From Lachnospiraceae bacterium (lineage in GTDB: Bacteria > Bacillota > Clostridia > Lachnospirales > Lachnospiraceae), in assembly GCA_017553505.1 (NCBI GenBank), contig JAFZLD010000018.1, positions 1 to 64,000 of the forward strand: a DNA stretch of 64,000 nt, read 5' to 3'. Of this stretch, positions 16,203-25,017 are shown one piece after another. The notes under the pieces were generated by a model, which made no database searches, was not told where the DNA came from, and saw only the letters and a program-made list of their open reading frames with translations. The first letter of the stretch is position 1. Each line of letters begins with the position of its first letter. Made by a program: the position numbers and the translations under genes.

Positions 16203-18473
16203 ATGAAAAAGAAACTTTTAAGTGTTATTCTCGCTGCTGCAATGGTTCTTTCTTTTGCAGGTTGTGAGAAGAAGGCACCCGTTTCCGAATCAGTTTCATC
16301 TACAGAAGTATCCGCTTCCGTATCTGAATCTGTTGAGGAACCCGTTGTTGAAGAAGTTGATCCCGACAACGTTCCCGAGTTTGCAGTATTGGCACTCGAG
16401 GGCAAAGAGTACGGCGTTGACTACGAATCTTTATACGATCACGTTGGTAAGAGCATTACCATCGCTGACGTAACCGAAGATCCTGATACAGGATTTGCTT
16501 ACATCACTGTAGACGGCGAGCAGAAGCTCCTTGGTCTTGATTTCTTAACCTTCGCTATGGTTTACAACACCGAGCCCGCAGGTGAGTACAAGACTAACGA
16601 CGAAGTATACGCTGCATGGTGGAAATATTACATTACACGTTGGAACGCTCTTCTTCCTGAGATTCCGCTTTACTCCAATGAGTACTACGATCTCTACAAT
16701 GCACAGATTAAGGGCGTTGACACACACCCCACCAACCCTTACTGGACTCCTGCAGAAGCTTTAATCGACTGGTCTTCAGAAAAGGCTGAAAAGGACATCA
16801 TTCTCGGTAACACCACTGAACTTTCCGGACAGTTCCGTTACGCTTCGTTCGGTAAGTCCAACCCCGGCGGTTCCGATCACGATATTGAAAACATGACCAA
16901 CGGACTTGAGACTGTATCCAAGACCAAAGAAGGTGGATACGTATGGAACGATTTAGTAGTTGACTCTCATGAAGAAGTAGTTAACGAAGACGGTTCCAAG
17001 ACATTCACCATCAAGGTTAAGGATGACCTTAAGTTCTCCGATGGTTCACCTATTACCGCTAAGGACTTCATCGCAAGATCAATGTCCTTCTACACACCCG
17101 TAGCTACTCAGGCTTCAGGTTTCCAGGTAACCGGTACTACCGTTGTTGGTTACGAAGAGTTTAACAAGTACACCGGTCCCGACAGTGCAGAAGGCACCAA
17201 GGTTCTTTCCGGTTACAGACTTATTGATGATTATACATTCTCAGTTACCATTAAGCCTGACTACATTCCTTATTTCTATGATATTACTTACGCAGGATTC
17301 ACACCTAACTTCAGAGCAATGTGGATCGGCGATGCTGATATCAAGGATGACGGCGAAGGCTGCTACTTCACCGATGACTTCTACGCTAAGAATGGTGAAG
17401 ACTATGTTTTAAAGGATCTTATTGAGGCTACAGGTACCGATACTTCCGATGCAGCATATGCTAAGTATCCTTACTCAGGTGCATACTGTGTTAAGTCTTT
17501 CGATACTGCAGACAGCTCCGCAGTTTTAGTTAAGAACGAATACTTCAAGGGTAACTACGAAGGTGCTACACCTTCTATCGAAAAGGTTATCTACAAGAAG
17601 GTTGTTTCCGCTACTCAGCTTGAAGACTTCAAGGCAGGCGGTATTGATGTTATCTCCGGTATTACCGGTGGCGCAGCTACCGACGAAGCTATCGCTCTTG
17701 CAGACGGCTCCGAAGGCAAGTACGTTTACACTCACTACAGCCGTGCAGGTTACGGTAAGCTCGGTTTCCGTGCTGACTACGGCCCTGCTCAGTTCGCAGC
17801 AGTTCGTCAGGCTATCGCATTCTGCATGAACCGTGGTCAGTTCGCTAAGGACTTCACCGGTGGTTACGGTGGCGTTGTTGACGGACCTTACTACACAGGT
17901 TCTTGGATGTACCAGGAAGCTGTTAAGCAGGGTATGATTCTTAACGCTTATGCTACTTCAGCAGACAGCGCAATCGAAGTACTTAAGGCAGGCGGCTGGA
18001 ACTACGCAGCTGACGGTTCCGAGTATGTAGACGGCGTTCGTTACAAGAAGATTCCTGCAGAGTACGCTACCAAGGAGATTAAGGAATACCAGTCCGTAGA
18101 CGGTACTTACAAGACTACCGAAGTTAACGGTGACTACTACATGCCTCTTGTAATCAACTGGTATGGTACTGTTGACAACGAGTTCACCGATCTTCTTCAG
18201 ACAGGTTTCAAGACCAATGAAAACGTTACCGCAGCAGGTATGGTAGTATACAACACCACAGGTGATTTCGCTCCCATGCTTGACGAGTTGTATCAGGCAG
18301 CTGTATACGGTTACTATTCAGGTTCACCTATGTACTGTGCATTCAACTTTGCAACAAGCTTCAGTTCTGCAGTGTATGACTACACTTGGAACCTTACAAT
18401 CAATCCTTCAATGTATGAAGATTACTCTGCATACTACATCAAGGACTACGCAGATATCTATTTGCTTAAATAA
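16203..18473 (+). CDS. Oligopeptide-type ABC transporter binding lipoprotein, rearranged family 5
   Basis: 756 residues, longer than the usual 520-600. The lipoprotein signal ends LSFAGC with C21, so it is anchored outside the membrane; a Ser/Val/Glu-rich linker follows. Residues about 140-190 (RWNALLPEIPLYSNEYYD, then NPYW) look like the segment usually found at the C-terminus of family 5 binding proteins. The normal N-terminal part starts only near residue 200 (SGQFRYASF, later DLKFSDGSPITAKDF). The protein ends at the point where that C-terminal segment would be expected, so the order looks permuted. GGGAGGA precedes the ATG. First gene of the operon, with a terminator behind it. Probably peptide-binding; ligand unknown. 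Confidence 0.88.
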   Translation: MKKKLLSVILAAAMVLSFAGCEKKAPVSESVSSTEVSASVSESVEEPVVEEVDPDNVPEFAVLALEGKEYGVDYESLYDHVGKSITIADVTEDPDTGFAYITVDGEQKLLGLDFLTFAMVYNTEPAGEYKTNDEVYAAWWKYYITRWNALLPEIPLYSNEYYDLYNAQIKGVDTHPTNPYWTPAEALIDWSSEKAEKDIILGNTTELSGQFRYASFGKSNPGGSDHDIENMTNGLETVSKTKEGGYVWNDLVVDSHEEVVNEDGSKTFTIKVKDDLKFSDGSPITAKDFIARSMSFYTPVATQASGFQVTGTTVVGYEEFNKYTGPDSAEGTKVLSGYRLIDDYTFSVTIKPDYIPYFYDITYAGFTPNFRAMWIGDADIKDDGEGCYFTDDFYAKNGEDYVLKDLIEATGTDTSDAAYAKYPYSGAYCVKSFDTADSSAVLVKNEYFKGNYEGATPSIEKVIYKKVVSATQLEDFKAGGIDVISGITGGAATDEAIALADGSEGKYVYTHYSRAGYGKLGFRADYGPAQFAAVRQAIAFCMNRGQFAKDFTGGYGGVVDGPYYTGSWMYQEAVKQGMILNAYATSADSAIEVLKAGGWNYAADGSEYVDGVRYKKIPAEYATKEIKEYQSVDGTYKTTEVNGDYYMPLVINWYGTVDNEFTDLLQTGFKTNENVTAAGMVVYNTTGDFAPMLDELYQAAVYGYYSGSPMYCAFNFATSFSSAVYDYTWNLTINPSMYEDYSAYYIKDYADIYLLK

Positions 18474-18512: not shown

Positions 18513-18562
18513 GTTGTGCTCGGCGGCAAAGACGCCGTCGGGCGCAACCTTTTTGGGTTTTT
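18513..18562 (+). terminator. Partial terminator between binding-protein and permease genes
   Basis: GTTG and CGGCG arms pair with CGCCG and CAAC around a small loop, then CTTTTTGGGTTTTT. Its position between the first and second operon genes would let the binding protein be made in excess. Confidence 0.75.
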
Positions 18563-18643: not shown

Positions 18644-18778
18644 TTGTCACGTTTAAAATAAGGATTTTTGTTATTTTATTTACACTTAAAGTTATTTTTT
18701 GATATATTAGTATGGATATTATCGGAGTAATCCGGTTTATTAATAAATAAAGAAAGTTAGATTTGAGAGGTACCAGTG

Positions 18779-19835: not shown

Positions 19836-21812
19836 ATGAAGAAGAAAAAAGAAAACATATTTCACATCCTTGCGCGCTGGTTCGTAAGAATGTTTATGGG
19901 GCCCAAGTACGAAGAGAAGATGTACAAAAAAGCCAACAAGAACATTGTTATCGACGATGAAAAACAGTCGGTACCCAATGATTCCGAGTTGATTGTAAGC
20001 CCCGCCAAGCAGGCATTACAGGGCTTTTTGGATAACAAATTTGCAGTATTTGCACTTTTTGCATGGGTGTTTATTTTTGCATTTGTATTTATAGCACCTC
20101 TCTTTATGCCCAAGTACTCTGATGCATATACAGAGGTTACACTTAAGAACCTTCCGCCCAACCGTACCATGATGAAGGTTCCCGAAGAATTAAAGAACGA
20201 TATTAAGATGATTGACAGTTACGGTCCTTTCTCCGTAGGCCTTTCCAATGCAGGTAAGGTTTATGTATGGGGATGTAAGAAGCTTGGAGCTTCAGGTATG
20301 GACGTTGAGATTCCCGAAGAATACAAGGATATCAAGATGGCCATGGTTGCTGCAGGCGTGGATCATATCGTTGCAATCGGAGAAGACGGCAAGATTTACG
20401 CATGGGGCAGCGACAGATTCGGCCAGTACGGACGTTCTGAGAACGCAATTACAAGTTCGACTATTGAAGCTATGCCCGAAGAACTCTATGAGAATGGTGT
20501 AGATGTTGCGCATGTCAAGAAGCTTACCTGTGGTTACCAGGCTACCGCAATCCTTATGGATGACGGTCGTGTTTACGTGTGGGGTAATAAGCAGACTTAC
20601 TCCAACATGGATAATTTCCTTGGACGAGAAGATATCTATGATATCGACTTTACCCTTAACTATATTGTAGGTATCGACAGTAAGAGAAACGGTATCTTTA
20701 CCGGTACACGTGGACTTTACGACACAGCCAAGACTTCTTTCAGCGGCAAGGGTGAGAAGATGTTCACCTTCTTAAACGGCAGAAAGATTAACGAGATTAC
20801 AGCAACTACAGCCAATATGTGTATTCTTCTTGACGACGGAAGTATCGCTATTGTCGGTGACTCGGTTGCAGATACCGTAGATGTTCCTACTCTTCCCGAA
20901 GGCGAGCAGTTCGTGGACATCAAGGCAGGTAACTACCATTATACAGCTCTTACCAATAAGGGGAATGTTTATTCCTTTGGCGGAGATCATTACCGTCAGG
21001 CAGAAGCGCCCGCTAAACTTCAGGGTGTGTCCAAGATTTTTGCAGGTTCTTTCCAGAGCTATGCTGTAGATGCTAACGGTGACTACATGGATGCATGGGG
21101 ATTCAAGGGCTTTCTTCTCGGTTCCGATGATGTCGGCGCAGACATTTGGGAACGTATGATTAACGGTGGCCGTATCACCATGACAGTCGGTGCCGTAGCC
21201 GTTATTATCGAGATTATTATCGGTGTTTCATTAGGCTGTATCGCAGGTTACTATGGCGGTTGGGTTGATATTCTTATCATGCGTATTGCAGAGGTGTTCA
21301 GCTCACTTCCTACCATCCCGATTATGCTTATTTTAACATCCCTCATTGCACAGATGTCACTTACTACTAACCAAAGACTTATGATGATAATGGTTATTCT
21401 CGGTGTTCTCGGATGGCCCGGATTTGCCAATATTACCCGTGCGCAGATTCTTGTTGCACGTGAAAGCGAATATGTTACCGCCGCTCAGGCTATGGGTATC
21501 AAAGAGGGCAGAATAGCATTCAGACACATTCTTCCCAATATTGTTTCGGTTATTCTTGTAAGTATTACATTAAGATTTGCAGGCGCTATGCAGACAGAAA
21601 CCGCATTGTCATTCCTGGGATTCGGTGTTAACTATCCTCAGCCCAGCTGGGGCAACATGCTTTCAAGAGCCAGCAACGCTACCGCAGCCAAGAACTTCTG
21701 GTGGCAGTGGGTGTTTACGTCCATTCTTATTATCTTCGTAGGTGTATGTATTAACACCATCGGCGATACGATTCGTGACGTTATGGACCCCAAGACTAAC
21801 AGTGAAAGGTAG
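19836..21812 (+). CDS. oppC: OppC/DppC-type ABC permease with an inserted RCC1-like beta-propeller
   Basis: 658 residues against about 300 for normal OppC. Residues 1-62 are cytoplasmic and TM1 is about 68-91. Residues about 120-425 form a propeller-like insert with turns at 142-146 (VYVWG), 187-191 (IYAWG), 246-250 (VYVWG), about 288 (IFTGT), 337-341 (IAIVG), 378-382 (VYSFG) and 420-422 (AWG). The regular spacing suggests seven RCC1-type blades. The ordinary permease resumes at LLGSDDVGADIWERM and continues to the EAA loop YVTAAQAMGIKEGRIAFRH. Known OppC topology puts the insert outside the membrane, next to where the binding protein docks. AGGAGG precedes the ATG. The fusion sits within one frame without a break. 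Confidence 0.93.
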   Translation: MKKKKENIFHILARWFVRMFMGPKYEEKMYKKANKNIVIDDEKQSVPNDSELIVSPAKQALQGFLDNKFAVFALFAWVFIFAFVFIAPLFMPKYSDAYTEVTLKNLPPNRTMMKVPEELKNDIKMIDSYGPFSVGLSNAGKVYVWGCKKLGASGMDVEIPEEYKDIKMAMVAAGVDHIVAIGEDGKIYAWGSDRFGQYGRSENAITSSTIEAMPEELYENGVDVAHVKKLTCGYQATAILMDDGRVYVWGNKQTYSNMDNFLGREDIYDIDFTLNYIVGIDSKRNGIFTGTRGLYDTAKTSFSGKGEKMFTFLNGRKINEITATTANMCILLDDGSIAIVGDSVADTVDVPTLPEGEQFVDIKAGNYHYTALTNKGNVYSFGGDHYRQAEAPAKLQGVSKIFAGSFQSYAVDANGDYMDAWGFKGFLLGSDDVGADIWERMINGGRITMTVGAVAVIIEIIIGVSLGCIAGYYGGWVDILIMRIAEVFSSLPTIPIMLILTSLIAQMSLTTNQRLMMIMVILGVLGWPGFANITRAQILVARESEYVTAAQAMGIKEGRIAFRHILPNIVSVILVSITLRFAGAMQTETALSFLGFGVNYPQPSWGNMLSRASNATAAKNFWWQWVFTSILIIFVGVCINTIGDTIRDVMDPKTNSER

Positions 21813-24399: not shown

Positions 24400-25017
24400 A
24401 TGGCACTTTTTCAGAACAATGATGAGCCCACTCAACGTAAGAAACGCGGCATAGAGAAATTCGCCGACGATTACACGATTGAGTATTATGAAGACAAGAA
24501 AGGCCGCGAGAAGCAGCGCGCCGTGTATATCGGTCCTCACATTTATGTGTTGGAAGACGAGCATTCTCTTAAGCTTAAGCTTATAGGAGTTTTGCTTACG
24601 TCGCTTATTGCGGTAGCGGCCGTGCTTTTGTCTCATATGGGGGAGCACGCCTCCGCATGGTGGTTCGGTACCATCCTTCCGCAGGCAGCAGCGCTTTTCC
24701 CTTGCATGTTCGTAGGCTTCGGGCTTCCCAACCTTCCCTTCAACGGTAAGGACATGCAGCGCGACCAGTACATGCACGGTATGATAAGACTCCTTAACTG
24801 CTTTGGCGCAATCGCCGTCATCATGGCGATAGAGCTTATAGCAGAGATTGTCTACAGAGCAACGCATTCTGACTGGCTGTTCTTATCAGGCGATATAGCC
24901 TTCTTAGTGAAGGTATTCGCCGCTATAGTATTCAGCATAGTTTCGGTTGTAATTCTAAGAAGTATCGACGTTGATGAAACCGAGCTCGGTGTAGAACGCA
25001 CGAATAGCAACAAATAA
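24400..25017 (+). CDS. Four-helix membrane protein encoded with the oligopeptide transporter
   Basis: 205 residues. A charged cytoplasmic-looking N-terminus of about 60 residues (RKKRGIEKFADDYTIEYYE) precedes four hydrophobic segments: near 63-80, 88-106, 128-150 and 163-187. The C-terminus is charged. I do not recognise a family. The ATG follows the OppF stop directly (TAA then ATG), which implies coupled translation and a link to the transporter. A strong terminator follows. It may be an accessory subunit contacting the insertions seen in its partners; that is inference. Confidence 0.72.
   Translation: MALFQNNDEPTQRKKRGIEKFADDYTIEYYEDKKGREKQRAVYIGPHIYVLEDEHSLKLKLIGVLLTSLIAVAAVLLSHMGEHASAWWFGTILPQAAALFPCMFVGFGLPNLPFNGKDMQRDQYMHGMIRLLNCFGAIAVIMAIELIAEIVYRATHSDWLFLSGDIAFLVKVFAAIVFSIVSVVILRSIDVDETELGVERTNSNK

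Follow-up and report, generated by a model that had tools for sequence, protein, structure and literature searches.

The window, that is, the whole stretch of 64,000 nucleotides analysed here, contains a run of five genes, oppA-oppB-oppC-oppD-oppF, in which the third gene, oppC, encodes a permease subunit carrying a large inserted domain (Table 1). Coordinates and strand of the oppC ORF were verified, and an aaggagg ribosome-binding site is located upstream of its ATG. The substrates of the importer would be peptides, as judged from family assignment only. A promoter-like site (18679-18708) follows the terminator-like hairpin between oppA and oppB, suggesting that oppBCDF may be transcribed apart from oppA. 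Directly 3' of oppF, positions 24400-25017 hold a 205-aa ORF (orf205) without a Pfam match; a relative of it also lies 3' of oppF in locus L134, and a weaker relative is found upstream of oppA in L055 and L192.

Table 1. Features of the opp operon in the window (positions are those of the whole stretch)
Feature	Position	Strand	Basis
oppA, binding-protein lipoprotein, 756 aa, lipobox FAGC	16203..18473	+	SBP_bac_5, lipobox pattern
Extra OppA N-terminal stretch, about 140 aa, residues about 50-190	16350..16772		alignment of 51 OppAs
Terminator-like hairpin between oppA and oppB	18513..18548	+	15 bp stem, T tract; fold z -3.5
oppB, permease subunit, 348 aa	18776..19822	+	BPD_transp_1; top NCBIfam model Opp4B, under cut-off
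oppC, OppC-class permease subunit with built-in propeller, 658 aa	19836..21812	+	ORF, Pfam, NCBIfam
OppC TM1, residues 69-87	20040..20096	+	hydropathy
RCC1-type propeller, residues about 111-424, extracellular TM1-TM2 loop	20166..21107	+	Pfam, fusion alignment, blade profile
Short junction WGFKGFLLGSD, last blade to permease core	21096..21128	+	loose pattern in 46/53 fusions
BPD_transp_1 permease core, residues 463-654, EAA motif at 545	21222..21797	+	Pfam, hydropathy
oppD, ATPase, 338 aa	21822..22838	+	ABC_tran and oligo_HPY
oppF, ATPase, 539 aa	22780..24399	+	ABC_tran and oligo_HPY
Core of OppF insert between Walker A and Q-loop, charged, about 180 aa	23077..23598	+	Walker A to Q-loop 232 aa

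The first-pass annotation had read the oppC product as an OppC-class permease with an RCC1-type propeller built into it, which is borne out by the Pfam families found along the protein. OppC_N was matched at residues 55-108 (E 3e-7, 30.6 bits against a cut-off of 23.9) and BPD_transp_1 at residues 463-654 (E 2e-32, 112.9 against 26.4 bits), and the profile search against RCC1 families was positive within residues of about 119-425 for both RCC1_2 (E 7e-29, four stretches, 99.3 against 22 bits) and RCC1 (E 1.7e-10, 41.7 against 21.7 bits). WD40_RLD (PF25390) reached an E-value of 3.4e-34 in the same region but only 119.2 bits, under the family cut-off of 150, and the top NCBIfam model for OppC, Opp4C (NF045476), scored 268 bits, under its cut-off of 350. 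MalF_P2 was absent among the Pfam families matched by the protein. Three RCC1_2 matches were detected in the window's genome (E <= 0.001), all inside the oppC ORF.

Six transmembrane (TM) segments were identified in OppC by hydropathy (residues 69-87, 451-469, 487-505, 515-533, 560-578, and 625-643), and none was found within the insert, whose top 19-residue hydropathy mean is 1.14. The insert (about 111-424) lies between TM1 and TM2, as expected from the earlier observation of about 300 extra residues between TM1 and a conserved segment; LLGSDDVGADIW begins at residue 427. The EAA motif (EYVTAAQAMG, residue 545) is located between TM4 and TM5. In this permease family the EAA motif touches the ATPase and is hence cytoplasmic, so that counting back from it places the TM1-TM2 loop, and with it the propeller, on the extracellular side, where the first-pass annotation had also put it. 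The N-terminal tail (residues 1-67) has a net charge of +4 and the loop (residues 96-425) one of -13.

Turns of the WG type occur in the window protein at residues 142 (VYVWG), 187 (IYAWG), 246 (VYVWG), 378 (VYSFG), and 420 (AWG). They had been described as regularly spaced, which did not hold up: VYVWG 246 and VYSFG 378 are separated by a gap of 132 residues, occupied by two degenerate blades (IFTG 287 and AIVG 338), d and e, and the gap is long because these blades have no WG turn in this protein. Seven repeats, the number proposed earlier, can be read from the alignment (a 122-147, b 167-192, c 226-251, d 268-292, e 317-342, f 357-383, and g 397-423), and the propeller is probably seven-bladed on this reading; by the blade profile, the window protein scores only four. 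This profile, which was built from blades b and f and takes stretches over 2 bits as blade-like, found three to nine such stretches per protein in all 54 fusions, that of the window among them, and 54 shuffled sequences gave none; in 53 of the 54 fusions, two of the matches per protein are the training blades themselves. In locus L189, the oppC product (876 aa) has nine blade-like repeats by profile, and this permease perhaps carries a larger or double propeller.

The stretch ahead of blade a resembles the P-containing inter-blade stretches and includes P116, conserved in 52 of 53 fusions, and the last blade ends on WG and passes directly into the permease, with a loose WG-x-K-G...G[TS]D pattern in 46 of 53 fusions. 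An insert that opens with an inter-blade-like P stretch and finishes with a WG strand should have its termini side by side, which insertion into a loop requires, and the N-terminal stretch may thus close the ring of seven blades.

Comparison of the window with L134 gave dN/dS values of 0.050 for the propeller (blades 1-3, 0.022; blades 4-5, 0.088; blades 6-7, 0.068) and 0.084 for the permease core; the propeller is under purifying selection. Across 53 sequences, mean column entropy is 1.23 bits in the permease, 1.6-2.4 bits in the blades, and 2.2-2.9 bits in the inter-blade stretches, the most variable part of the propeller. The best-conserved propeller residues are structural (G, W, P, and H), and as the inter-blade stretches vary, no conserved docking patch stands out.

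A survey for the same architecture found it in many genomes; the family, genus, order, class, and phylum samples overlap, and each includes the window's genome. At the family level, 16 of 397 genomes matched the loop plus its flanks (E <= 1e-12), and all 16 are represented in the fusion alignment. A profile of 17 rows (A1, used at E <= 1e-90 for the other scans) matched 2 of 18 genomes in the genus, 27 of 392 in the order (24 after removal of G040, G439, and G496, matched in the permease part only), 18 of 391 in the class (17 without the permease-only G798), and 14 of 398 in the phylum. These counts are lower bounds, as at most three first-look candidates were scored per genome in the order, class, and phylum scans and at most four in the family scan. 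Among the 80 loci listed from named genomes, at least 13 are fusions, including those of Clostridium sp. Cult1 and an Erysipelotrichaceae MAG, and propeller permeases were found in genomes of several families. We collected 54 propeller-OppC loci (window included), a subset of all positives; 53 of the fusions (all except the 876-aa L189 protein) form 52 clusters at 90% identity, and their identity to the window OppC ranges from 0.31 to 0.90. An unrooted tree, built by a quick method, covered 32 of the 54 fusions and 81 other permease domains (113 in total); a single branch with an SH-aLRT support of 100 has all of these fusions on one side.

The genes around these permeases were examined with seven window proteins as queries (OppA, OppB, OppC, OppD, OppF, orf205, and TAXI). 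A complete oppA-B-C-D-F set on one strand is present in 49 of the 54 loci, window included. Four of the five incomplete loci sit on contigs under 10 kb: oppA is missing in L163, L165, and L193 (contigs of 6-7 kb) and oppF in L182 (9.4 kb). The fifth, L187, has neither oppD nor oppF within the stretch fetched; it is a second RCC1-oppC copy, with oppA and oppB, in a genome (G507) that also has a complete operon (L186).

These operons share a further feature on the inner side of the membrane, namely a probably helical insert between Walker A and the Q-loop of OppF. Of 52 RCC1 opp loci, 50 have it; among non-RCC1 opp loci, none of 41 does. In 49 of the 51 RCC1-operon OppFs measured, Walker A and the Q-loop are 180-245 residues apart, and in the remaining two (L060 and L190) 52-56, compared with 45-54 in all 41 non-RCC1 OppFs that were recognised and measured; the oppF ORF of L174 starts within the insert and was counted as insert-bearing, which gives 50 of 52. 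The insert has about 130-200 residues (184 in the window by this measure). No convincing Pfam family was found in the window insert; among four inserts scanned, that of L173 matches PF22905 (28.2 bits against a cut-off of 27) and the other three match none. A search of 196 genomes of the class with an insert profile matched 10, of which eight are known propeller genomes. In G829, the match lies on a 3.7-kb contig that stops before oppC, and the sole A1 match elsewhere in that genome (E <= 1e-20) is permease-only; in G802, it covers 55 residues in a 69-aa frame at a contig end and is taken for chance. The OppF insert is a second, co-inherited module of the propeller lineage, and its link to the propeller may be due to shared ancestry only.

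Large domains of another kind occupy the same loop elsewhere. A separate branch of the permease tree (15 rows, support 83) consists of clostridial OppCs with about 190-440 extra residues between TM1 and TM2, in which no convincing Pfam family was detected (eight of the 15 members scanned). Because the fusions and these orphan-insert OppCs belong to different branches, a large domain appears to have entered the TM1-TM2 loop at least twice. The possibility that the orphan insert is a hidden propeller was rejected, with no RCC1 profile match at E 1e-5 and no RCC1 in Pfam for the eight scanned. An FxxxGxxY motif recurs in several orphan inserts, and internal self-similarity exceeded all shuffles in only one of six proteins tested (L073). 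Within the window's genus, nine of 17 further genomes encode an orphan-insert OppC (L004, L005, L007-L010, L012, L014, and L017), five of them represented in the tree; further examples are L006, L067-L069, L071, L073, and L082-L085. In six wider orphan-insert loci (L142-L147), no ORF matching the window OppA was found, and OppD has 395-399 aa.

The partner to which the propeller is tied was sought by correlating distances between loci (43 of the 54), and partial correlations were taken with the permease, OppB, OppD, and OppF core as fixed covariates. The loci dropped were L189 (longer propeller), L163, L165, and L193 (no oppA), L182 and L187 (no oppF), L174 and L176 (broken or short oppF), L060 and L190 (OppF without insert), and, by choice, L172 (short OppB). 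Raw propeller distances correlate best with those of OppA (0.83), against 0.71 for the propeller's own permease domain. With the other partners fixed, the partial correlation between propeller and OppA core is 0.56 (p 0.002, the floor of 499 permutations) and that between propeller and its own permease is -0.05. Permease and OppB, which are known partners, served as a positive control and gave 0.74, indicating that the test can find contact, and the control of OppF insert with OppA gave -0.08. The propeller-OppA correlation is 0.48 when L180 and L181 are left out and 0.51 when the OppB external loop is also fixed. By part, it is 0.62 for blades a-c, 0.12 for d-e, and 0.30 for f-g. In the DNA, oppB separates oppA from the propeller, so that proximity of the genes is not sufficient to account for this pattern.

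The contrast is less clean in sub-samples than in the 43 loci. Inside the window-like clade (16 loci), propeller and OppA give 0.88 (blades a-c 0.78, d-e 0.79, and f-g 0.60), and the OppC N-terminus plus TM1, which should not touch OppA, reaches 0.51 there, compared with 0.03 in the full set. Outside that clade (27 loci), the propeller-OppA value is 0.37 (p 0.004), about as strong as those of OppB with OppA (0.39) and permease with OppA (0.28). The OppB external loop tracks both OppA (0.34) and the propeller (0.37), and part of the signal may therefore be common to extracellular surfaces. For propeller and OppF insert, tight co-evolution receives no support from the full sample (0.06, p 0.15, and 0.05, p 0.2; 0.01 without L180 and L181), though both sub-samples give about 0.25 (p 0.004 and 0.022). 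The extra N-terminal stretch of the window OppA was considered as the partner of the propeller and is unlikely to be so, because most of the 51 RCC1-operon OppAs have gaps there.

One locus, L180, is a mosaic operon. It was set against the window and L057, the clearest case among nine rows compared. Its permease (0.70 vs 0.60), OppB TM part (0.69 vs 0.54), and OppF core (0.76 vs 0.65) resemble those of L057 more than those of the window, whereas its OppA (0.66 vs 0.46) and propeller (0.52 vs 0.35) are closer to those of the window. OppD is an exception among the remaining parts and sides with the window, at 0.76 to the window and 0.72 to L057.

The explanation that we favor, with a probability of roughly 0.55, is that the propeller is a docking platform of the MalF-P2 kind matched to the OppA of its own operon. 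The RCC1-like propeller in the TM1-TM2 loop of OppC would form a rigid platform at the channel mouth, as MalF-P2 does, and would contact OppA in order to capture, orient or hold it; as a consequence of such docking, mainly the cognate OppA would deliver peptides. Alternatively, the propeller might be a ligand-binding or capture domain in its own right (for a peptide, a glycan, or a wall polymer), serving to enrich substrate or to anchor the importer in the wall, with OppA docking as usual on the membrane loops. Its large size and extracellular position would suit such a role, its highly variable inter-blade stretches (2.2-2.9 bits vs 1.2 in the permease) are what a diversifying binding face might look like, and a common substrate would likewise make propeller and OppA diverge together. 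However, there is no ligand-site signature among the most conserved propeller positions, and the unrelated inserts in the same loop of another clade suggest a generic role for this slot; we consider this alternative unlikely. Gating of docking, holding of a second ligand, and attachment to wall material were all offered by the first-pass annotation, whose interpretation is supported in outline; of the three, docking has the best support, from the P2 slot and from co-divergence.

A different possibility is that propeller and OppF insert are the ends of one signalling relay, in which OppA or peptide would be sensed outside and a cytoplasmic partner reached via the OppF insert. This would fit the distribution of the insert (50/52 RCC1 operons vs 0/41 others), the propeller being present in eight of the 10 insert-matched genomes (196 of the class), and the values of about 0.25 in both sub-samples, but the correlation is near zero in the full sample, L060 and L190 keep the propeller without the insert, and single ancestry could explain the linkage; a relay thus seems quite unlikely. 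Still less probable is that the propeller acts as a scaffold for some other surface protein (e.g., a peptidase) or mainly stabilizes the complex: its conservation is mostly structural and RCC1-like propellers are protein-binding folds, yet co-divergence points to OppA. An artefact, either a gene fusion by misassembly or chance similarity, is refuted by the locus survey (54 loci from several families and including named records, with the 53 aligned falling into 52 clusters at 90% identity) and by the low dN/dS, and its chance is negligible.

A broader proposal can be made, which we advance tentatively and at somewhat below even odds. OppA and propeller might belong together as a pair, evolving and at times being exchanged jointly, with the rest of the transporter as an interchangeable chassis. 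Such a pair would form an extracellular docking code by which an Opp channel accepts delivery from certain binding proteins and not from others. The OppF insert, which marks the propeller lineage from inside, would make these systems a distinct class of Opp importer, rebuilt on the cytoplasmic side too. The TM1-TM2 loop might then be a general slot for docking domains, filled by RCC1 repeats here, by P2 in MalF, and in a second clade by an orphan domain of about 190-440 aa. To our knowledge, recognition of the cognate binding protein by an importer has been explained in few systems, and a large separable domain at the docking position in many species makes the selectivity question testable by a one-domain swap. 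According to the abstract of PMC10569065, Opp importers function in nutrition and, in many Gram-positive bacteria, also in peptide signalling, which gives docking selectivity a wider meaning.

No description of the architecture, the loop, or the OppF insert was found in titles, the beginnings of abstracts, and some passages of papers outside subscription journals, and tables in PMC10710014 and PMC9491525 contain unrelated mentions. InterPro may nonetheless display the architecture even if no paper comments on it. The system can be described as an Opp importer in which a P2-like domain is built from an RCC1 propeller.

Among known structures, the nearest relatives of the propeller by sequence profile include the RCC1-like propellers of BLIP-II (3qhy, 2e-45) and UVR8 (6xzn, 5e-45), and RCC1 itself (1a12, 1e-27) was also matched; all three share RCC1 repeats with it; BLIP-II and UVR8 bind proteins. 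No propeller-bearing permease was found among the 39 PDB sequences matched, as judged from names and matched ranges. E. coli DppC and OppC (8z1v and 8z21) have the permease core in common with the fusions (E 3e-62 and 8e-69 with the profile), and their match starts at residue 75-81 of chains of 300-302 residues, which leaves no room for a propeller before the core. The Opp4-type importer (OppABCDF with Opp4B/Opp4C) resembles the window system in gene order, in its OppC_N plus BPD_transp_1 permease, and in its two oligo_HPY-tailed ATPases, whereas the window system adds the OppC propeller of about 310 residues and the OppF insert, and its permeases score under the curated Opp4 cut-offs (OppC, 268 vs 350 bits).

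The closest parallel in position is MalF of E. coli K-12, in which MalF_P2 (residues 100-260) lies between a TM segment at 73-91 and BPD_transp_1 at 298-501 (TM 285-303), just as the propeller lies between TM 69-87 and BPD_transp_1 463-654 (TM 451-469) in the window OppC. By these boundaries, the propeller occupies the slot of MalF-P2, between the TM segment before the core and core TM2; HHalign of MalF against the permease profile is too weak (probability 9.8%) to add to this, and the assignment to the slot is based on Pfam boundaries and hydropathy. MalF differs in its additional N-terminal TM region (PF20872), and MalF-P2 (PF14785) has about 160-180 residues and belongs to a Pfam family different from that of the RCC1 propeller. 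Titles of papers cited in PMC3150292 and PMC8134467 report an interaction of MalF-P2 with MalE over the whole cycle and a role of MalF-P2 in signalling the availability of substrate to MalK.
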